A DNA stretch of 40,242 nucleotides from a virus. Shown piece by piece: positions 18,984 to 30,397 of the stretch. The stretch spans positions 1 through 40,242 of the IMG/VR virus record IMGVR_UViG_3300042564_001624. One strand, written 5' to 3'. Every line of letters begins with the position of its first letter. The first letter of the stretch is position 1. The position numbers and the translations under genes are program-made. Under the pieces are notes generated by a model. It did not search any database. It was not told the origin of the DNA and worked only from the letters and a program-made list of their open reading frames with translations.

Positions 18984-21900
18984 TTATATATTCTCGAAAG
19001 ATGCTCCTGTTGGAGTGATATAGAACGTAATGTCTATAAATTCTAACGATTTGGTTGGTTTGATGTAAATCTTACCTGTCATTTGATTTCTGTCTAAGTC
19101 AGCTGCGTCAGACGAAACTGTTACTCGGAAATCGTAAAGACCTCTATCTCTTCTAATCGAATCTAATATTGGATTAACAGAATCTAAGAAATCTTGTCTT
19201 ACTTTAGCATCGTTTTGTTCAAATAATAATCTAACAGAAACTGCGGATATTAATTTACGAGCTTGAAGTAATAATCTTCTTACGTTGATTCTATCAAGAG
19301 CCGATTGTCTAATTTGAAGAGTTTTATTACCCCAAATTACTGTTCCAACATCTGAAAACGTTGCGATTGGATTTAAACGACCTTGATATAGAGTATCTCT
19401 ATTCTCTTGAGTCAATTTAACTCTCGCTTTAACCGCATTTACAATACCTCTCGTGTAACCCGCAGCCGCGAACCAAGGATAAGCGATGTTGTCTGTTAAC
19501 GCTAAGTTTCTCGTTACCTCAGCAGTTGCTGGTAAGTAAATTTGTGTATTGTTAACCGTATCTCTCATTAATACCCAAGGGTAGTAAGTAGCCGTGTAGT
19601 TAGAGTCAATACCTGAATTTGCTAAATTATCTACTGCCTCTTGTGGGTAAATAAAATCAAATTGATTACCTGTCGAAGGAACATACATCTTGTAGTCAGG
19701 TGTTGTACAAACGTACAATGAATCCGCTCTACTATATTCTATCATATCGATAGCATTTTCAACTAAATTAGAGTTATTTACATAATCAATACCCGGTGTA
19801 ACAAACACGTTAATGTTTACCGCTTCAGGATTTGCAAATGTTTCTTGACCCAATAAATAAGCGTAATAATCGGTATTCGCAAAATCTTGAGTATTACCTG
19901 CAACACTAATTTGTTTGAATGCACCCCAACCTGTCGCGGAAGGGTATCTTGCGGTAGAACAAGCTCCTTTTAAGTAACCTCGTCTACCTAATACAAATTC
20001 ATCTTTATTTGTTCTAAATTCTCTATAAATGTCCCATCCATCAAAACCACCTTTAACAAGTAAAGTAAATTTACGAGCAAAAATTCTATAATAAGGATTT
20101 TCAGGGTCATCAGGGTCTGACGTAAATGGTGCATCACCACAGAAGAACGCCGGTGTACCACTAGTAACAAACACATTAGGAATTGTAATACCACTTGCGT
20201 TTTTATCCATATGGAATCCTTTTGTTCTAAAGTTCCAAGGTAAACCTTCAGTATTAAAACATACACTTGCTGGAATTCTTGTTCCTTTATATTGGAAGAA
20301 ATCAACGTCAATACCTTCAGTATCTGAAATACCTAAGTAAGTTCTTCTTACATTATCACCCGCACTTGTAGTTGTGTCGTCCGCACCTGATGCTAAACCA
20401 AATGGTGGGTTATAAACAACCTCACCAGGATAGTAGTATTTAGCTTTGATTAATGGGAATGGTGGTCTTACACCAGCATATTCTCTATAATCATATCCTA
20501 AGAATCCACAAGGAAGTGCGTCTATCGGAGCATCCTCGTTAATCTCAACCATAATATAACTTGATAATAAAGGATATTCCCCATCTAAACTACCAATTTT
20601 TTTACCAACAAATGAATTTTCTTGAGGATTCATTGTACAATCAGTATATTTTTCAAGAACAACCGGTGCAGAATCTGTATCAAAGAAATCTCTAACCAAT
20701 ACATCAAAAGTACCATTGTTAAATGACATATTAGCTAACGATATCTTAATATCAACGTTAGCAGAATCACCATCAGCAATTGTTGTAAATTTAAATAAGT
20801 TATAAACTTTATTACCTCTTAATTCAGAAACAACCCAAGGTGATACCGGAGATTGATATTTTTCTAAATAAAATGCTATTGATGTTGGGTTAGCCTCTTG
20901 ACGAGCATCAGGTAAAGCAGTTAATTCACAATTTAAACCTCTAATATAACCCATTCTCCAAGCATTTGTTAATAAAGCTTGGAATCTTTCTTCAACAAAT
21001 AACGGAACTACAGTTCTTGGTTTAGAGAAGTTAGACGCTCCAAATACTTTACTTACATATTTAGGGTCAGAGTTTGAAAAGGATGTTTCAAAGAAATATT
21101 GGTCACCATCTTTACTTGTGATGTTAACACCAAAAGTTGAAAATGGATTTTTAGTTACACCAGAATATGTTCCTGTACAATCTAAAGTAACATCAGTTAA
21201 TCCTGACACTTCATAAACCGGACCATCATCTAAACCATATGTTGAAAGACCTCTTGAACGTAACGTAGCGATTACTAAATCATCATAATCTGTATATGCT
21301 GTTCCCGAGTAGACATAAATAACACCTATCAATGTACCTGTATAACAATGAACCGGTTTTGCGGTTGTTGTTGAAGTAGTTGATGTTGATGTTGTAGTCG
21401 TACATGGGTCAGTCGTAGTAGTTGTTGTATGTGGGTCAGTCGTAGTTGTTGTTGTAATAATAGGTGTTAATGTTAATCCTGTTACAACAGACCAAAATGA
21501 AAACCCTGTATAAGCAGCATCACCAATATTATCAAATAATGAGTAATACCAAGGGTCATTTTGTGGTGCAGAATAATTACATAAATTAGCACTTACATTA
21601 TCAACTTCATAAACATTTGTTTCACCTGTATATACTTCACTTAATCCTGAATAAACACTAGTTGGTATTGCCCCATAGTAATAGATTGAAGTATCTTCTT
21701 TTTCCGGTTTTGAAACTATATCAAAAATTTGTTTAGAGAAATCAGTATACAATGTACTCATACTACCATCGAATTGTTCGTAAGGTTCGTACAATATTGA
21801 AGATATCTCAGGAGCTAAATTAGATGTGTTAGTAAACACTATACTATCAATACTGTTAGTACATGCTGAGAATTCAATAGAATAATTAATTGTTTTAAAG

Positions 21901-22316
21901 TCAATACATTCAGTTATACAACTAAACGTTGTTGCACTTTCACAAAAGAAATCAACCGTTGTTGGGTCAACATTAGCTTTTGTTGTTATAGACCAAGATG
22001 GTCCTGCATCATAACCAGATAATCCTAAAACTCTCGTTACGAATAATTGGTTAGATTGTTGTAAGTATGATTTAGCAATATAAGCTGCTTCGTACTTTGG
22101 AATTTGTGTATTTATAAATTTTTCTGGAGAAGTTCCACCGAAGAAATTTGTGAATTCATCAAAATTTCGTATAAAGATAGGTTCGAAAGCAGGACCTTTT
22201 AAGGTCTCACCCACAATACCCAACGTGGTAACCCCCACACTTTGTGCTACGAAACTTAAATCAACTTCAGAAGTATATACTCCGGGAGATACGAATACTT
22301 TTTGATTTGATGCCAT
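18984..22316 (-). CDS. 18: tail sheath protein (gp18-like) with large insertion and Thr tract
   Basis: The product is 1110 aa, much longer than T4 gp18 (659 aa). The N-terminus (VFVSPGVYTSEVDLSFVAQ, then TLGIVGETLKGPAF) and the C-terminal ~350 residues (YPWVLMRDTVNNTQIYLPAT, YPWFAAAGYTRGIV, ARKLISAVSVRLLFEQNDA) are classic contractile sheath sequences. Between residues of about 120 and 420 lies a large insert with seven or more Cys. It includes a Thr-rich segment at 288-320 (runs of T separated by DPH and DPC) flanked by C305 and C324. The insert is expected on the outer face of the tail. Its mixed ACA/ACT/ACC codons argue for selection on the protein. A TATTTATCAATA motif lies about 35 nt upstream and a terminator closes the unit. 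Confidence 0.9.
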   Translation of the reverse strand: MASNQKVFVSPGVYTSEVDLSFVAQSVGVTTLGIVGETLKGPAFEPIFIRNFDEFTNFFGGTSPEKFINTQIPKYEAAYIAKSYLQQSNQLFVTRVLGLSGYDAGPSWSITTKANVDPTTVDFFCESATTFSCITECIDFKTINYSIEFSACTNSIDSIVFTNTSNLAPEISSILYEPYEQFDGSMSTLYTDFSKQIFDIVSKPEKEDTSIYYYGAIPTSVYSGLSEVYTGETNVYEVDNVSANLCNYSAPQNDPWYYSLFDNIGDAAYTGFSFWSVVTGLTLTPIITTTTTTDPHTTTTTTDPCTTTTSTSTTSTTTAKPVHCYTGTLIGVIYVYSGTAYTDYDDLVIATLRSRGLSTYGLDDGPVYEVSGLTDVTLDCTGTYSGVTKNPFSTFGVNITSKDGDQYFFETSFSNSDPKYVSKVFGASNFSKPRTVVPLFVEERFQALLTNAWRMGYIRGLNCELTALPDARQEANPTSIAFYLEKYQSPVSPWVVSELRGNKVYNLFKFTTIADGDSANVDIKISLANMSFNNGTFDVLVRDFFDTDSAPVVLEKYTDCTMNPQENSFVGKKIGSLDGEYPLLSSYIMVEINEDAPIDALPCGFLGYDYREYAGVRPPFPLIKAKYYYPGEVVYNPPFGLASGADDTTTSAGDNVRRTYLGISDTEGIDVDFFQYKGTRIPASVCFNTEGLPWNFRTKGFHMDKNASGITIPNVFVTSGTPAFFCGDAPFTSDPDDPENPYYRIFARKFTLLVKGGFDGWDIYREFRTNKDEFVLGRRGYLKGACSTARYPSATGWGAFKQISVAGNTQDFANTDYYAYLLGQETFANPEAVNINVFVTPGIDYVNNSNLVENAIDMIEYSRADSLYVCTTPDYKMYVPSTGNQFDFIYPQEAVDNLANSGIDSNYTATYYPWVLMRDTVNNTQIYLPATAEVTRNLALTDNIAYPWFAAAGYTRGIVNAVKARVKLTQENRDTLYQGRLNPIATFSDVGTVIWGNKTLQIRQSALDRINVRRLLLQARKLISAVSVRLLFEQNDAKVRQDFLDSVNPILDSIRRDRGLYDFRVTVSSDAADLDRNQMTGKIYIKPTKSLEFIDITFYITPTGASFENI
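21357..21455 (-). repeat. Thr-tract coding repeat in the sheath gene
   Basis: This low-complexity stretch of Thr codons encodes residues 288-320, with TDPH and TDPC punctuation. Its codons are varied (ACA, ACT, ACC), unlike a simple triplet expansion. The same kind of tract occurs in the BppU-like gene at 33801-33881 and as a single Thr6 in the 1669-aa baseplate protein. Confidence 0.8.
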
Positions 22317-23639: not shown

Positions 23640-24176
23640 TTATTGTTTTGTTATAAATATTTTGTTTCTTAAGTTTATCATTTCAACTTCACCGGCACGG
23701 TATATTGGTTCTTCGGTGTCTTTTATAACATAAGAATTGTATTTATATGGATTATAGGTAACTACGTTATCATTTGGTTCACTTGGTAAATTTTCACAAG
23801 GATATTTACAATAATCCATTAATGTTCCAATTACAAATGAATGAACATTTTTACTTTTTTCTCTAACTACTTTTTCTCTTCCACCTTGTCTAACTCTAAA
23901 TTCAACATCTGATAATTTAACATAGTCGGCATGAGTAATAACTCTTCCACCATAGGTTACTGAAAAGGTGTGTTTGTGTAAGTTATAATAAACCATAACT
24001 TTATCACCTATATGTTTTTTCTCCTCATTATCGTGACCACACTTGTGACAGATATAAGGGTCGTTTCCACCATCGGCTAAAGCCCAAGACCAACCACACT
24101 CATCACAAATCACTTCTGTGTCGGTAATGGTTTCTAATAGTCTTCTATATTGACTTTCATTAATTTTAATTTTCAT
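23640..24176 (-). CDS. unknown phage protein with zinc ribbon and MKIKINES N-terminus
   Basis: A longer frame starts at 24227, but I prefer ATG 24176. It gives MKIKINESQYRRLLET, matching the starts of the two upstream genes, and overlaps the preceding stop by 11 nt. The resulting 178-aa protein has a zinc ribbon, C24-xx-C27 and C43-xx-C46 (ICDECGWSW and ICHKCGHDN). A domain with VYYNLHKHTFSV, VRQGGREKVVREK and KNVHSFV follows; I associate this pattern with a phage domain of unknown function. The C-terminus is uncharacterised. The zinc ribbon suggests nucleic-acid or protein binding. It is the last gene of a four-gene overlapping set and lies 1 nt before the gp15-like start. Confidence 0.65.
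   Translation of the reverse strand: MKIKINESQYRRLLETITDTEVICDECGWSWALADGGNDPYICHKCGHDNEEKKHIGDKVMVYYNLHKHTFSVTYGGRVITHADYVKLSDVEFRVRQGGREKVVREKSKNVHSFVIGTLMDYCKYPCENLPSEPNDNVVTYNPYKYNSYVIKDTEEPIYRAGEVEMINLRNKIFITKQ
23648..23659 (-). promoter_or_regulatory. late-promoter-like motif for the gp15-like gene
   Basis: TATTTATAACAA on the minus strand, 9 nt upstream of the gp15-like start and lying within the 3' end of the preceding gene. The leader AAACAATAAC matches those of other genes here. Confidence 0.5.
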
Positions 24177-24579
24177 AATCGTAATATGTGGATACTGATT
24201 TAACAGGTAAATTAAAATTATCTTCAAACCATTTTTTCATAGGTTCTTCCCAATGTCCTTCAAACATGTCATCTAAATGTTCCGCGTGCTTACCAATAAC
24301 TTCTAAAATTGGTGCTTTATCTCTAAAAGGTTTATGTGATGGTTCAGTATTATAATAATCAACATCAAAATAATAAAAAATAATATCAGTATCATAAATA
24401 CCTTGATAATCACCTTCAAAGAACATTAAAAAGTTTTCGTTTTCTCTATCAACATCAGGATATCCATCTTCATCTTCATCCATACCATAAACCCAATCCA
24501 TTTTACTTGAATTAAATGTTTTATCAATATAATTGTATATTGAATTGAATAGTTTATTTTCTGTTATTATTAGTTTCAT
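24166..24579 (-). CDS. unknown acidic protein, paralogue of its upstream neighbour
   Basis: An upstream in-frame start exists at 24612, but ATG 24579 gives MKLIITENKLFNSIYNYI, parallel to the neighbour's MKVIITESRLHNIVIKFL, and overlaps the neighbour's stop by 4 nt (ATGA). The 137-aa product is rich in Asp, Glu and Tyr (YGMDEDEDGYPDVDRENEN). The C-terminus, KKWFEDNFNLPVKSVSTYY, mirrors the neighbour's LWVEEYYNLPVKAVTTNND, so the pair are diverged tandem duplicates. I recognise no enzymatic motif. The Asp-rich segment might bind Ca2+ or simply be acidic surface. Confidence 0.6.
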   Translation of the reverse strand: MKLIITENKLFNSIYNYIDKTFNSSKMDWVYGMDEDEDGYPDVDRENENFLMFFEGDYQGIYDTDIIFYYFDVDYYNTEPSHKPFRDKAPILEVIGKHAEHLDDMFEGHWEEPMKKWFEDNFNLPVKSVSTYYDYEN

Positions 24580-24929
24580 ATTTTGTTGATTTGTTTTAAG
24601 ATGTCCCTCCACACAATATTTTCATGAAAATCGTTATTGGTAGTTACCGCCTTTACTGGTAAATTATAATACTCCTCCACCCATAACTTAATAACCTCAC
24701 CAATCTGTCTATTTCCCATACCGAAAAGACTTTCCAAATAATGTCCAATGTGTTTATATGAAATATGTACCACATTACTTTTTGTATTGTAATCAAATAT
24801 AATTTCACCATCTTTTATTAATAAAATGAGAAATTTATTATAATCATACAATTTCAAATCTCCATATTCGGAGTTTAGAAATTTAATTACAATGTTGTGT
24901 AATCTAGATTCTGTTATTATTACTTTCAT
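24576..24929 (-). CDS. unknown small protein with MKVIITES N-terminus
   Basis: The product is 117 aa, starting MKVIITESRLHNIVIKFLN. The start shares its A with the stop of the preceding gene (TAATG), which indicates translational coupling. The body is mixed alpha/beta with IIFDYNTKSNVVHISYKHIG and a C-terminal WVEEYYNLPVKAVTTNND that is shared with the next gene. I do not recognise the family. The common N-terminus of three consecutive, otherwise mostly different proteins suggests a functional tag rather than a catalytic domain. Confidence 0.6.
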   Translation of the reverse strand: MKVIITESRLHNIVIKFLNSEYGDLKLYDYNKFLILLIKDGEIIFDYNTKSNVVHISYKHIGHYLESLFGMGNRQIGEVIKLWVEEYYNLPVKAVTTNNDFHENIVWRDILKQINKI

Positions 24930-25492: not shown

Positions 25493-27268
25493 TTGGAAAA
25501 CAATACATCAGAAAATTCTAATTTAACAATAGAACAGAAAGCAATATCTCTCCTTGATACTTACGAGGGGGCGAATAACTATATCCTTAAATTAAAACTA
25601 CAAAAGGACACCAATAAAAGATTTTACCCTACTCGGGCACAATCTGACTATATCATTAATTATTACGGAGTAACACCAAAGGTAGCCAAAAGATGGGTTG
25701 ATTTAGACCCTTACTTTGCTAAAAAGATTGCCGATGAAAAATTACTAACCACGATTCCTGAACAAATATGGGTTGAAAAGCTATTAGTTGAGAAAGACAA
25801 ATCCTATCATGTTTGGGGAAAAATTACGGAAGGTGAAACTATCCACGATTTTTGGCTACCAAAAGGTGCTTTAATTAAAACCCACGTTATTAAAGATGTG
25901 AAAATTGATTATAGTAAATATAGTCATAGACCACCTCTTGAACATCAACCAATTGCTATTGAAAAATTAGTTGGGTCAAAACGATTCATATTGGCGGATG
26001 ATATGGGTCTTGGTAAAACAACCATTACCGTTATCGCGGCTTTAGAGAGTGGTGCTAAAAAAATATTAATTGTTTGTCCGGCATCTCTGAAGATTAACTG
26101 GCAAAGAGAGATTGCAAATTATACAGATAGAAGTGTTTACATTGCTGAAGGTAAAAACTTTTCAATTGAACACGATTTTGTAATTGTTAATTACGATATT
26201 CTTAAAAACTTCTACGATTTAAAAGACAAAGAAAATTCATTAATAACTCAAGGAAATTTTGACCTTATTATTTTAGATGAGGCACATTATGTGAGTAATG
26301 GTCAAGCAGCAAGAACCAAATTGGTTAATAGTTTCTGTAAAAAAGTGGATAAACTTTGGTTATTAACCGGGACACCTATGACCAATAGACCAATGAACTA
26401 CTTTAATCTGTTGGCATTAATTGAAAGTCCTGTTGCTCAGAATTGGATGGCTTACGCTATTAGATATTGTCAAGGTTATCAATTCACTGCGGGAAGTCGT
26501 AAAATATGGAACGTTACCGGAGCATCAAATTTGGAAGAATTAAGAGACCGAACTTCAAGACAAGTTTTACGAAGATTAAAAACCGACGTATTAGATTTAC
26601 CTGAAAAAATTATCACTCCAATTTATTTGAGATTAAAATCTAAAATGTATGAAGGGTTAATGGGTGAGTATTATGATTGGTATGATAAGAATCCGGATGA
26701 AAGTACATCATTAACGGTTCAGTTCAGTAAACTAATGAAAGTTCGTCAAGTAATTGCTGAAGAAAAAATTAAAGACACAATCGAACTTGCTGAAAATATT
26801 ATAGAACAAGGTAAGAAAGTTATTATTTTTACTAACTTTACTGACACTCTAAATAAAATCTCCGAACACTTTGGTAAATCGGCGGTTAAATTAGATGGTT
26901 CAACGGCAAAACCTCAACGACAATACGCTGTTGACCAATTCCAAGAAAACGAAAAAATTAAAGTGTTCATTGGAAACGTGAAAGCTGCCGGTGTTGGAAT
27001 CACATTGACCGCCGCTGAAGCAGTTATTATGAATGACCTATCATTTGTTCCGGGAGATTTATCTCAAGCTGAAGATAGAGCATACAGATATGGTCAAAAA
27101 AATTCGGTATCAGTTTATTACCCAATCTTTGATAATACCATAGAAGGGATAATTTATGATATGGTTAATATGAAGAAACAAAACATCGGAACGGTTATGG
27201 GAGATAACATTGGTGAGAGTGGTGACTTCATTGAAGAACTTATGAATAAAATCAACACCCGAAGATAA
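25493..27268 (+). CDS. SNF2-family helicase/ATPase
   Basis: The product is 591 aa. Helicase motifs in order: Q-like region near P147-Q152, motif I DDMGLGKTT (about 169-177), motif II LDEAHYV (261-267), motif III LTGTPMTNRP (291-300), motif V GVGITLTAAEA (about 500) and motif VI QAEDRAYRYGQ (about 525-535). The DEAH box plus the LTGTPM and QAEDRxYRxGQ forms are SNF2-type, closest in style to SMARCAL1-like annealing helicases. A role in fork restart or recombination, like T4 UvsW, is plausible but inferred. The start is a TTG at 25493; the frame is open back to 25460 without an ATG, and the first in-frame ATG falls in motif I. No terminator separates it from the next gene. Confidence 0.85.
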   Translation: MENNTSENSNLTIEQKAISLLDTYEGANNYILKLKLQKDTNKRFYPTRAQSDYIINYYGVTPKVAKRWVDLDPYFAKKIADEKLLTTIPEQIWVEKLLVEKDKSYHVWGKITEGETIHDFWLPKGALIKTHVIKDVKIDYSKYSHRPPLEHQPIAIEKLVGSKRFILADDMGLGKTTITVIAALESGAKKILIVCPASLKINWQREIANYTDRSVYIAEGKNFSIEHDFVIVNYDILKNFYDLKDKENSLITQGNFDLIILDEAHYVSNGQAARTKLVNSFCKKVDKLWLLTGTPMTNRPMNYFNLLALIESPVAQNWMAYAIRYCQGYQFTAGSRKIWNVTGASNLEELRDRTSRQVLRRLKTDVLDLPEKIITPIYLRLKSKMYEGLMGEYYDWYDKNPDESTSLTVQFSKLMKVRQVIAEEKIKDTIELAENIIEQGKKVIIFTNFTDTLNKISEHFGKSAVKLDGSTAKPQRQYAVDQFQENEKIKVFIGNVKAAGVGITLTAAEAVIMNDLSFVPGDLSQAEDRAYRYGQKNSVSVYYPIFDNTIEGIIYDMVNMKKQNIGTVMGDNIGESGDFIEELMNKINTRR

Positions 27269-27310: not shown

Positions 27311-28849
27311 ATGAAACATATTGAAAATAAAATCAAACTCATTACGGAAGAGATTCAAAATGTTGAAAAACAAGAAAATGAAACACTCTTTCTTAATGAG
27401 ATGAAAAAGATAGGAATCGATAAATTACCTTATTCCTATTCAGCACTAAAGCAATTTATTGATGCTGAAACAATGAACTACCATTATAACAAACATTATA
27501 AAGGTTACGTAGATAAACTAAACGCCGCTCTTAAAAACAAAGATTATGGTGATTTAGAACTTGAAGAAATAGTTAAATCTATCAGTAGATTTAATAAAAC
27601 TATAAGAAATAATGCAGGAGGAGCATTTAACCACGCATTATTTTGGAAAATGTTATCACCAAAAACTCAAACTCCAAATGGTGATGTAATCAAACAAATC
27701 AAAAAAGATTTTAATACATTTGCCAACTTCAAAAAAGAATTTGAAACTATTGCAAAAGATAGATTCGGTTCAGGATGGGTTTGGTTAGTCCTAACAAAAA
27801 GAAACACCTTAAAAATTGTATCTACCGCAAATCAAGACAATCCATTAATGAATGTAGTTGAAGATGGTGGATACCCAATTTTAGGATTAGATTTATGGGA
27901 ACACGCCTACTACCTAAAATACAGAAACAAAAAAGATGACTACATTAAAAACTTTTGGAAATGTGTAAATTGGGAATTTGTTAACAAATTATACACAATG
28001 AGAGTGGATAATAAATTAAATGAAAGTGCTGAATTAAAATCTGTTATTTCTGAAGGTAAATCTGAAAGATGTAGTAGAGAAATGAATGAGGCGATTCGTA
28101 TGGTATTCAACATCAATCCAAAAGTTAAAACAATCTTCAAAGACGGAATTAACAGAATGTTAAAAGAAGTTTTTCCCGACAACTATTATGGAAATAACGA
28201 ATATGCCGAAGGTGAAGTTGCCGGAGTATATGATTTAGAAACTCAAGGTCGTTCAGTTTTAAATAAACTAAACACAAACTATAGTTGTTTTTGTGTTTTA
28301 CTTAATGATGTTAATCAAGTTTTAATATCCAAACAATTACCTGAAATAAAAATGATTGGCCTAAAACCATTTGAACAAATAAGTGAAGTTCGAAAACTTG
28401 TTGACGTTTTAGACGAATACAAATTTAGAATATTCTCACAAAAATCATCCACATTCCAAAATCTTATGAAAGTTTTAACCCAAACTAATAGTTGGGGACA
28501 ATCAAGAGAAGATAAAACTATTGAAATATTAAAAAAACAATTTGGTAATGATAACGTTAATGCTATCGGTAAACTTGGGAGTAAAGAAGATATGATTGGT
28601 GGTGTTGATTGTGAAGTAATTGTTGATGGTGTTAAAAAAACTGCACAAATTAAACCATTTACCGGTGAAAAAGAAATTAAAGATTCAATAATGATTTTAG
28701 GAACAGGAAATGTTAAACGATACTCAACGGATTGGTTAATTTTTACTCGTAATAATAAAGAAGTTTTGGTCTTTGACAATAAACATTCAAAAATAATGGA
28801 CGGTCAGTTTATTTTCCCTAAAGAAGACCTGATTTATACATTAAGTTGA
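27311..28849 (+). CDS. Mn-type superoxide dismutase fused to a PD-(D/E)XK-like nuclease domain
   Basis: The product is 512 aa. Residues of about 38-229 are a full Fe/Mn-SOD domain with all four metal ligands: H58 (NYHYNKHY), H108 (GGAFNHALFW), D194 and H198 (GLDLWEHAYY). The Gly-Gly before AFNH and STANQDNPLM with Q175 are Mn-SOD-type rather than Fe-type. It also has FGSGWVWLV and YIKNFWKCVNWEFV. Such enzymes convert superoxide to O2 and H2O2. After a linker, residues of about 390-500 carry REDKTIEILKKQFG (E400), then GGVDCEVIVDG (D433) and TAQIKPF (Q446-I-K448), the spacing of a PD-(D/E)XK fold with a QxK motif. Residues 240-385 are unrecognised. The frame is intact and uses codons like its neighbours. 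The SOD call is firm; the nuclease call is tentative. Confidence 0.85.
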   Translation: MKHIENKIKLITEEIQNVEKQENETLFLNEMKKIGIDKLPYSYSALKQFIDAETMNYHYNKHYKGYVDKLNAALKNKDYGDLELEEIVKSISRFNKTIRNNAGGAFNHALFWKMLSPKTQTPNGDVIKQIKKDFNTFANFKKEFETIAKDRFGSGWVWLVLTKRNTLKIVSTANQDNPLMNVVEDGGYPILGLDLWEHAYYLKYRNKKDDYIKNFWKCVNWEFVNKLYTMRVDNKLNESAELKSVISEGKSERCSREMNEAIRMVFNINPKVKTIFKDGINRMLKEVFPDNYYGNNEYAEGEVAGVYDLETQGRSVLNKLNTNYSCFCVLLNDVNQVLISKQLPEIKMIGLKPFEQISEVRKLVDVLDEYKFRIFSQKSSTFQNLMKVLTQTNSWGQSREDKTIEILKKQFGNDNVNAIGKLGSKEDMIGGVDCEVIVDGVKKTAQIKPFTGEKEIKDSIMILGTGNVKRYSTDWLIFTRNNKEVLVFDNKHSKIMDGQFIFPKEDLIYTLS

Positions 28850-28870: not shown

Positions 28871-30013
28871 ATGGCAATATTAACTGGTGCAACATACCAA
28901 ACTGCAATTATACCGGAACCGGAAAGAACTAAATTATATACAAGAATTAAACACTTACTTGGTGCCCCATTAAGAAGTATTGAATTAGAAGACGAACAGA
29001 TGGATAGTTTATTAGAATTATCTATTGGTGACTATTCACAATATATCCAAGATTGGTTAATTGAATCTCAATGGACTTCTTTATACAACTTAAATTTAGA
29101 TACTGAATCATTATCAAGAGCATTCATCACTAAAAGTTTAGATTGGGAAACAAGATATACTTACGCATACTCTAAAATTGTTGGATTACAAGCCGGAGGT
29201 GATTGGGTATTAAAGAAAGATTTTGTTCAGTTAGTTCCAAACCAACAAATATATGAAATCCCTGCAAACCGAGAAATAAATGAAGTGTTATGGTTTACTC
29301 CATCAACATTAAACGGACTTCTATTTGACCCATGGACTTTTGGTGGTTTAGGTGGTGGTGGTTTTGGTGGACCGGGTGGTTTCGCTCAAATGGGTGCGTC
29401 AGGTTCATATTTTATGATGCCAGCATTTGATATGTTATTAAGAATGCAAGAGATTAATATCCAACGAAGAATTATCGCGGGGGATTTAACTTATACCATA
29501 ACAGCATTACCTGAAGGTAAAAAAGCCCTTCACTTAATGAACACACCTGGTGGTAAATTTGACTTTGGTAATCAAGAAATGACAAGAGGTAAAGTATGGT
29601 ATTGGTATTATGATGTTGGTCCTGCAGATAGAGATAATTGTTTAAAAAACAATCCGGATATTATTAAATTACCATCGGATGTTCCAATTGATTCAATGTC
29701 TTGGATTGATTTAAATAATCCTTCACAACAATTTGTTAGAAGATGGTTCACCGCTTATTGTAAAGAAACGTTATCGAGAGTTAGAGGTAAATTTAGTGGT
29801 AACATTAAAACACCTGATAGTGAGTTAACGATGGATTACGCCACTTTAGCAACTGAAGGTAAAGATGAGAAATCAAAACTTGAAGAAGAATTGAAATTAA
29901 GATTAGAAAGATTACGACCTGATAAAATGATGGAACGTGAAGCATTAATTGCGGAAAATTTAAACAAACAACTTAAATTCAGAGCAATGCCAAGACAAAT
30001 TTATGTAATATAA
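28871..30013 (+). CDS. 13: neck protein (gp13-like)
   Basis: The product is 380 aa (T4 gp13 is 309). The N-terminal helical part (YTRIKHLLGAPLRSIELED, then LLELSIGDYSQYIQDWLIE) leads to VLKKDFVQLVPNQQIYEIPA and NEVLWFTPS, then a Gly-rich loop (GGLGGGGFGGPGG). The C-terminal helices contain FTAYCKETLSRVRGKFSG, ELTMDYATLATEGKDE and a charged LEEELKLRLERL. This signature (W/F-x-x-x-YC-KE-xL-x-RVRGKFSG followed by T-x-EG-x-x-EK-xL) is what I associate with gp13-type neck proteins, which bind the portal after packaging. It lies 3 nt before the next gene. Portal-adjacent adaptor of another type is the alternative. Confidence 0.6.
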   Translation: MAILTGATYQTAIIPEPERTKLYTRIKHLLGAPLRSIELEDEQMDSLLELSIGDYSQYIQDWLIESQWTSLYNLNLDTESLSRAFITKSLDWETRYTYAYSKIVGLQAGGDWVLKKDFVQLVPNQQIYEIPANREINEVLWFTPSTLNGLLFDPWTFGGLGGGGFGGPGGFAQMGASGSYFMMPAFDMLLRMQEINIQRRIIAGDLTYTITALPEGKKALHLMNTPGGKFDFGNQEMTRGKVWYWYYDVGPADRDNCLKNNPDIIKLPSDVPIDSMSWIDLNNPSQQFVRRWFTAYCKETLSRVRGKFSGNIKTPDSELTMDYATLATEGKDEKSKLEEELKLRLERLRPDKMMEREALIAENLNKQLKFRAMPRQIYVI

Positions 30014-30016
30014 TTT

Positions 30017-30397
30017 ATGAATACCGTAACTCAAAGATTAACAAGAAAAACAATTAACGATAGACGATTTTTAGGTAATACTTTAATCGAGATAGACACT
30101 ACTGAAGAAACTGAATTAATACCAATGAAAAAAATTATTACCGAATCCGATTATAGAACAAATGGGGAAATTCTACTTGTAATTAAAGATGTTGAATCTT
30201 GTAATATAATATTAGATTCTAATACAACAGAACATATTATTATTAAAGCATTAACCAAAGTATTCATTAGACCAAGTTCTGGTAAAATTGATGAATACTA
30301 TGATGAAATATTTATTGATTGGGGAGCTTGTGTTGAATTTTATATGTTAGAAAATAATTGGTACATCGTCTCATCAGATGGTTTAAAATTAGAATAA
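30017..30397 (+). CDS. unknown small beta-rich protein, 126 aa
   Basis: I do not recognise this protein. It starts 3 nt after the gp13-like stop, so it is probably co-translated. The N-terminal ~36 residues are polar, and the rest looks like a small beta domain (EILLVIKDVESCNIILDS, then IDEYYDEIFIDWGACVEFY, then NNWYIVSSDG), as in phage tail or head-decoration folds. An internal ATG (codon 37) would give MKKIITESDYRTNGE, similar to the MKxIITES starts near 24-25 kb. The sequence does not decide between the two starts. A bidirectional terminator follows directly. Confidence 0.6.
   Translation: MNTVTQRLTRKTINDRRFLGNTLIEIDTTEETELIPMKKIITESDYRTNGEILLVIKDVESCNIILDSNTTEHIIIKALTKVFIRPSSGKIDEYYDEIFIDWGACVEFYMLENNWYIVSSDGLKLE

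Follow-up and report, generated by a model that had tools for sequence, protein, structure and literature searches.

A phage gene joining an Mn-type superoxide dismutase to a predicted PD-(D/E)XK nuclease, with conserved candidate prohead-protease sites around the dismutase

Introduction

What might a superoxide dismutase (SOD) do in the same polypeptide as a nuclease, next to a neck gene of a phage? The question is raised by a 40,242-nucleotide stretch of viral DNA (IMG/VR record IMGVR_UViG_3300042564_001624; hereinafter the window), in which one gene encodes both. Free-standing phage SOD genes and the capsid-targeted cargo of T4 are known; an SOD-nuclease precursor with internal protease sites would be new. 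Below we describe the two domains, the motifs that flank the SOD and the locus, and lean toward a reading in which the protein is a precursor that is packed in the head and cut by the prohead protease into a free SOD and a free nuclease, both of them probably ejected with the genome. If this is true, the phage particle brings its own superoxide defense and a nuclease, freed from one precursor by head maturation, and oxidative stress at infection becomes tied to the contents of the virion.

Results and Discussion

A single frame that recurs across viral contigs

The frame at 27311-28849 on the plus strand is open from an ATG start through 512 codons with no internal stop, and encodes an Mn-type SOD (residues 36-229), followed by a helical domain and then by a PD-(D/E)XK-type nuclease domain (residues 392-512) (Table 1). 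A sequence-only reading of the window had described one uninterrupted frame joining the SOD to a C-terminal domain; neither a stop nor a frameshift, the finding that it had named as contrary, lies between residues 230 and 390. The residues it had singled out in the SOD (H58, H108, Q175, D194 and H198) and in the C-terminal domain (E400, D433, Q446 and K448) are all where it placed them, and each is invariant in the 83 distinct fused proteins from the fetched IMG/VR loci, as are H62, Y66, W156, W158, W196 and E197. Scanning of viral contigs (viral_contigs) with the fused protein recovered at least 599 stretches that encode relatives, of which 80, ranging from 56 to 100% identity, were kept; 79 of these match from residue 1 to at least residue 508, and the other (L053) ends at a contig edge, at residue 337. 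The search for the same fusion in other phages that had been suggested thus found it to be common in IMG/VR. Because it recurs in 83 distinct proteins with invariant residues, the fusion is no product of chance or misassembly, and a sequencing or assembly artefact is ruled out.

Table 1. Features of the fused gene and its surroundings in the window
Feature	Positions	Strand	Basis or remark
SOD-helical domain-PD-(D/E)XK nuclease gene	27311..28849	+	512 aa; sequence and fold
N-terminal leader, residues 1-35	27311..27415	+	mostly predicted helix; similar leader on SOD-less relatives
Candidate site 1, I-T-E, residues 11-13	27341..27349	+	[LI]xE within 8-16 in 64/83
Candidate site 2, L-N-E, residues 28-30, directly before SOD	27392..27400	+	83/83 within 26-32
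Mn-type SOD domain, residues 36-229	27416..27997	+	Pfam, PDB sequences, fold, invariant ligands
Linker, residues 230-249	27998..28057	+	low-confidence, likely disordered
Candidate site 3, L-N-E, residues 236-238, directly after SOD	28016..28024	+	76/83 within 234-240
Candidate site 4, I-S-E, residues 246-248, before nuclease half	28046..28054	+	82/83 within 244-250
Helical domain (MID), residues 250-391	28058..28483	+	model; no fold match
PD-(D/E)XK-type nuclease domain, residues 392-512	28484..28846	+	model and structural comparison
E400, predicted catalytic	28508..28510	+	83/83
D433, predicted catalytic	28607..28609	+	83/83
Q446-x-K448, predicted catalytic	28646..28654	+	83/83
SNF2-type helicase, conserved upstream neighbor	25493..27268	+	Pfam/PHROG scans
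Head-tail adaptor (neck) gene, 21 bp downstream	28871..30013	+	PHROG 211 (Ad2), E 8.9e-11
Small ORF, 90 aa, leader MKKIITES, next after neck gene	30125..30397	+	start chosen inside longer frame
Small ORF, 117 aa, leader MKVIITES	24576..24929	-	leader scan
Small ORF, 137 aa, leader MKLIITEN	24166..24579	-	start chosen inside longer frame
ORF, 178 aa, leader MKIKINES	23640..24176	-	start chosen inside longer frame

The SOD domain

The SOD is complete, as had been claimed: both Pfam domains, Sod_Fe_N (residues 36-116, E 2.9e-23) and Sod_Fe_C (residues 122-226, E 1.7e-39), score above their cut-offs with the ligands in place, phmmer against PDB sequences recovers solved Mn-SODs (8kb3, E 6e-58; 5n56, E 9e-58), and SOD structures align with residues 48-234 of the whole-protein model at Z up to 18.1. 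The two Pfam domains, together with the three His and one Asp ligands and the outer-sphere Gln in 83 of 83 proteins, place it among the Fe/Mn SODs. The Gln lies on the C-terminal side, as in Mn enzymes; the domain is of the Mn type and predicted to be active, its use of the metal likewise being a prediction. It shares its whole fold, its sequence family and all ligands with bacterial Mn-type SODs (PDB 5n56, 8kb3 and 4yio), but differs from them in sitting inside a longer protein with a leader and a nuclease half.

The helical and nuclease domains

A model of residues 230-512, built from 32 aligned relatives (mean pLDDT, 85.4; pTM, 0.78), was searched against 998 solved chains. Nucleases or nuclease-bearing complexes fill the first 29 rows, with Z from 8.6 to 4.8, values near the level at which the tool cautions about common arrangements. 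They include archaeal Hjc, RecU, NhoI, HhaI, DpnI, I-Ssp6803I, two SPARDA entries and one tRNA-splicing endonuclease, and most of them we presume to be members of the PD-(D/E)XK superfamily. The nuclease rows align with model residues 156-283, about residues 392-512 of the protein; the best is Hjc 2wcw (Z 8.6 over 100 residues, 3.4 Å), and identity in the leading alignments is 5-18%. Foldseek alone is weaker, its best solved match being I-Ssp6803I (E 0.02, probability 0.99). In the whole-protein model, E400 lies in a long helix (380-411), D433 before a strand (434-438) and Q446-x-K448 within another (441-449), a placement that is as the superfamily expects. The fold and the invariance rule out a chance E-D-QxK pattern, and the prediction that residues 392-512 form a PD-(D/E)XK metal-dependent nuclease is supported. 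The earlier proposal of a nuclease-like C-terminal domain is thereby borne out, fold prediction having yielded no non-nuclease family for this half. The domain shares its predicted fold and the E-D-QxK pattern with its nearest PD-(D/E)XK nucleases, archaeal Hjc and I-Ssp6803I, but unlike them it is preceded by an extra helical domain.

For that helical domain (residues ~250-391) no fold was found among the 998 chains, the rows confined to it having Z of at most 3.5. No convincing Pfam or PHROG family was recovered for the C-terminal half: scans with the nuclease and with the helical-nuclease half gave scattered weak matches to single members (best E values, 0.0012 and 0.0028), and a profile of the nuclease alignment against PDB sequences gave a best E of 0.32.

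Candidate prohead-protease sites around the SOD

The prohead protease of T4, gp21, is described as cleaving after L/I-X-E (PMC9026906). Four such motifs stand outside the folded domains of the fused protein, two in the leader, one directly after the SOD and one before the nuclease half. All 83 leaders hold an [L/I]-x-E at residues 26-32 and could end there, 19 lack the first site, and a single row (L059) lacks the fourth. The linker is otherwise variable across relatives and mostly below pLDDT 50 in both models (residues 233-244 and 246-249 in the whole-protein model; 230-249 in that of residues 230-512). In rows only 53-60% identical to a divergent member used as query, the motifs flanking the SOD are kept though the neighboring residues change. 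When the leader and linker columns of a set thinned at 90% identity (n = 27) were reordered in 20,000 trials, the observed number of conserved motifs was reached 14 times at the 75% level of conservation and 11 times at the 90% level. The linker taken by itself gave P values of 0.008 and 0.003, respectively. Because the motif was chosen after it had been noticed, all of these values are optimistic. [L/I]-x-E is a loose motif: it is also conserved within folded parts (84-86, 195-197 in the SOD signature, and 357-359), and over the whole protein, conserved instances between two large relatives, G001 and G002, number only 0.98 per 100 residues, the median over 158 orthologue pairs being 0.54. The conserved sites around the SOD argue that the halves are cut apart rather than kept joined. 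The joint functions suggested in the sequence-only reading, such as a nuclease tied to redox state, presuppose joined halves, and the sites speak against that assumption.

The 40-kb window holds no head cluster, and we therefore turned to relatives for the protease and the capsid protein. In the 322-kb relative G002, Pfam identifies Peptidase_S77 (E 1.2e-24), Gp23 (E 2e-73) and Portal_T4, and the genes run terminase, portal, core-like protein, a 154-aa ORF, protease, a nuclease paralogue, scaffold-like protein and capsid protein (L178), an order that is T4-type. The G002 protease shares 34% identity with T4 gp21 (E 1.4e-22) and 81% with the protease of G001. The capsid protein, which of the two was read whole in G002 only, has a site INE60|A that aligns with LTE65|A of T4 gp23, whose propeptide is given as 65 residues (PMC9026906); the equivalent site reads V-S-E in the cultured relative immuto (by eye) and I-S-E in another, Mel-JY01. 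Seven [LI]xE motifs are conserved in the core-like protein encoded between portal and protease, the second-highest density of the 158 pairs. The paralogue in this cluster, a helical-nuclease protein (L178:10105-11061), has the prohead protease gene and the scaffold-like gene as its immediate neighbors, one on each side.

Internal proteins of T4 are reported to bear short N-terminal capsid-targeting propeptides (PMC9026906), and Alt is recorded as cleaved at ITE-6 and LTE-619 (PMC5694885). The fused protein resembles these capsid-targeted, gp21-cut and ejected proteins in its leader and [L/I]-x-E sites, and the relative G002 has a gp21-type protease and a gp23-type capsid protein; it differs from them in that a single precursor joins two predicted enzymes, with candidate sites separating them, and its packaging is a prediction. 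We propose that a late-expressed precursor is carried into the prohead core by its N-terminal leader, where a gp21-type protease would cleave after [L/I]-x-E at the sites flanking the SOD and before the nuclease half. This would yield the leader, an active Mn-type SOD on its own and, as another protein, a metal-dependent PD-(D/E)XK DNase that retains the helical domain. The two enzymes would stay beside the packaged DNA and probably be ejected with it. The nuclease half, as the constant part, might process genome ends or host DNA, at packaging or at entry, and the SOD, as an optional rider, might clear superoxide near the DNA or in the newly infected cell. An SOD-like protein in a virus particle has a precedent in A45 of vaccinia, described as Cu-Zn-SOD-like and packed in the virion (PMC9282662), though as an analogy only, A45 belonging to an unrelated SOD family and virus and having no nuclease.

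Alternatively, the protein could act uncut in the cytoplasm during infection as a bifunctional enzyme, whose SOD shields replicating phage DNA while the joined nuclease takes part in recombination or in breaking down host DNA; the [LI]xE motifs would then be incidental features of the linker. Other large phages do have SODs: those of the Pseudomonas phages Callisto and PA5oct and of Vibrio phage 2.275.O are Fe/Mn SODs about 28-30% identical to that of the window, those of Callisto and 2.275.O being free-standing small genes which, unlike the fusion, have no nuclease attached. The nearness of the nuclease fold to Holliday-junction resolvases and the SNF2 helicase gene upstream would also suit such an enzyme. 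We regard it as unlikely, given the persistence of the motifs on both sides of the SOD at 53-60% identity while their neighbors change, and the retention of the site before the nuclease half in all 13 distinct relatives that have no SOD.

A conserved locus in which the SOD is optional

The set was extended by two more scans. One used the nuclease alignment and gave 333 relatives, the other used a divergent member as query and gave 190; 80 were kept from each. Altogether 227 loci with the nuclease, several of which share a contig, reduce to 103 distinct 1-kb cores, 88 with the SOD and 15 without. The SOD-less relatives are ORFs of 298-322 aa at the same locus that keep the N-terminal leader and the helical-nuclease half, and since the nuclease is kept in them, we take it to hold the primary function. 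Upstream, the SNF2 helicase is present in 162 of 162 fused and 28 of 28 SOD-less loci (counting those with more than 3.5 kb upstream of the nuclease, repeats of one contig included); downstream, the neck gene adjoins in 163 of 174 fused and 28 of 30 SOD-less loci (those with more than 1.3 kb downstream, repeats again included). The neck-gene context noted earlier also stands, with a match of the downstream gene to the PHROG 211 head-tail adaptor Ad2 whose best stretch covers its residues 285-346 only. As the fused gene ends just 21 bp before it, late coexpression of the two is likely, judged by this spacing.

On a tree of 101 rows (83 with SOD, 13 SOD-less and 5 outgroup), the presence of the SOD needs at least two changes, with bootstrap support not fully settled and some outgroup branches very long. 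One SOD-less protein (L102) falls inside the clade of the window protein and still has residues from the two margins of the SOD insert; hence, the SOD was most likely lost in-frame in this lineage. The remaining SOD-less rows form one 12-row clade. Ten large contigs of relatives all hold the nuclease, which is no evidence because they were chosen for holding it; the SOD scores above the Pfam cut-off in seven of them, once in each, in an open frame of 516-540 aa that is the fused gene, and no second SOD above that cut-off was found in the ten, nor any SOD in the three SOD-less ones.

A scan of genome_contigs with the nuclease alignment, limited by its two short peptide patterns, gave 589 pattern matches and no relatives, so that within these limits the family looks viral. 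A 735-kb megaphage has an SOD-less homologue of 290 aa, with which a scan gave 15 pattern matches and again no relatives. With the helical-nuclease profile at E 1, no match was found in two cultured relatives over the parts read, 150 of 160 kb of immuto and 50 of 190 kb of Mel-JY01. Elsewhere, L173:1306-2433 (G004) encodes a 375-aa helical-nuclease homologue far from the main locus, and at eight loci, some sharing a contig (L029, L033, L045, L046, L057, L058, L124 and L150), minus-strand proteins of 496-499 aa with a Cys-x-x-Cys-rich start end in a nuclease-domain paralogue.

This locus bears on three other explanations. The SOD could serve for structure or targeting, its catalysis being secondary: as a stable dimer it would hold the nuclease in position at the portal or neck. 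The conserved locus and the neck gene 21 bp away might suggest this. Such a role seems improbable, however, since a purely structural use would not need the catalytic and outer-sphere residues examined to be invariant in 83 of 83 proteins, and the SOD is absent from 15 of the 103 distinct loci with the neighbors mostly unchanged.

It has also to be considered whether the nuclease takes the place, in this lineage, of the T4 head-completion nuclease gp4, working on packaged DNA before tail joining with the SOD as a passenger. T4 gp4 is a predicted PD-(D/E)XK protein (PMC1189080), and its DNase activity is reported as needed for packaging (PMC7824862). The neck neighborhood fits, and so does the count of matches to the gp4 family, PHROG 218, which is found in only one of the ten large contigs (E 3e-11, L155), in an unrelated-looking endonuclease ORF. 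We rejected that lone match as a gp4, the ORF lying in what, judged by its sequence, reads as a dUTPase gene split by an intein-like insert (G003:16638-16955). The fused protein itself has no match to PHROG 218, to which T4 gp4 matches at 1.5e-62, so that membership by sequence is rejected, and the T4 order gp2-gp4-gp53 is not seen at the locus; the absence of PHROG 218 counts for little in contigs of uncertain completeness from distant phages. We give this explanation a low probability as a rival, and it can be compatible with the packaged precursor that we favor. Finally, a homing-endonuclease-type mobile gene that acquired an SOD, to which the Foldseek match to I-Ssp6803I and the paralogues at other places might point, is very unlikely given the fixed neighbors in nearly all fetched loci with room for them and a fused SOD with invariant residues.

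A short leader shared among other proteins

The packaged-precursor reading assigns the leader a role in targeting, and short leaders with an [L/I]-x-E motif occur on other proteins. Among ORFs of at least 80 aa in 320 of the 322 kb of each of G001 and G002 (pieces L257-L288), a start of MK, one to five residues and [IL][TSKN]E[SQNK] is found in 27 of 318 and 21 of 313 ORFs, respectively. After shuffling, the means are 0.44 and 0.36, and none of 200 shuffles gave more than 2; part of the excess is due to paralogues and orthologue pairs. A slightly looser form gathers 58 proteins, which, after removal of the first 30 residues, fall into 46 BLAST clusters (E 1e-3), the largest of 10. The leaders, of the type MK..ITES or MKK..RLTESDL..IINE, stand on mostly unrelated small proteins and so behave as a transferable signal would; by analogy with T4, we infer that they may be capsid-targeting signals. 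The fused protein's own leader is not of the common MK..ITES form, its first [LI]xE lying at residues 11-13. In the parts of the cultured relatives that were examined, three ORFs fit the looser form, all in immuto and none in Mel-JY01. No description of the common leader was found in the open-license literature searched.

Taking these findings together, a broader proposal is that phages of this kind pack an active antioxidant enzyme and a DNase as one precursor cut by their own prohead protease, as part of a large leader-borne cargo system in which dozens of unrelated proteins are delivered with the genome; we offer it tentatively, as a proposal that falls a little short of being probable. If it is true, what a group of uncultured large phages packs could be predicted from their sequences alone, by way of the shared leader.

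Four ORFs close to the fused gene in the window have such leaders (Table 1), and a fifth match, at an internal Met of a 2296-aa ORF, was dropped. The 178-aa ORF has two Cys-x-x-Cys motifs and a Phage_L5_gp82 domain (Pfam), and its N-terminal part resembles the Cys-x-x-Cys-rich start of the L029-type paralogues, without the nuclease.

Related records

The sequence-only reading knew of no phage protein with this pairing; that it has no precedent in phages is not supported. Besides being common in IMG/VR, the fusion is probably already in sequence databases under the name superoxide dismutase: the BFVD entry A0A6J5L953, a 501-aa protein of an uncultured phage so named, has the same C-terminal half (E 1.6e-25; TMq, 0.84; 36% identity), and its name and length fit the same fusion, the comparison covering the C-terminal half only. 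Among the matches listed from the open-license literature, judged by titles and the openings of abstracts, none describes an SOD-nuclease fusion; nor was any paper on the virion proteome of immuto among the matches listed.

The same helical-nuclease fold recurs (TMq, 0.75) within a further BFVD entry, A0A8D9CCA0, which is 1113 aa long and comes from an uncultured marine phage. Several of the matches H1-H9 from a phages collection are short or host-labeled records with bacterial-type SODs 44-51% identical to that of the window, and look like host DNA. In the window itself, the tail sheath gene (18984-22316, minus strand; 1110 aa) has its best PHROG 23 stretch at residues 818-1108, with some 800 residues before it.
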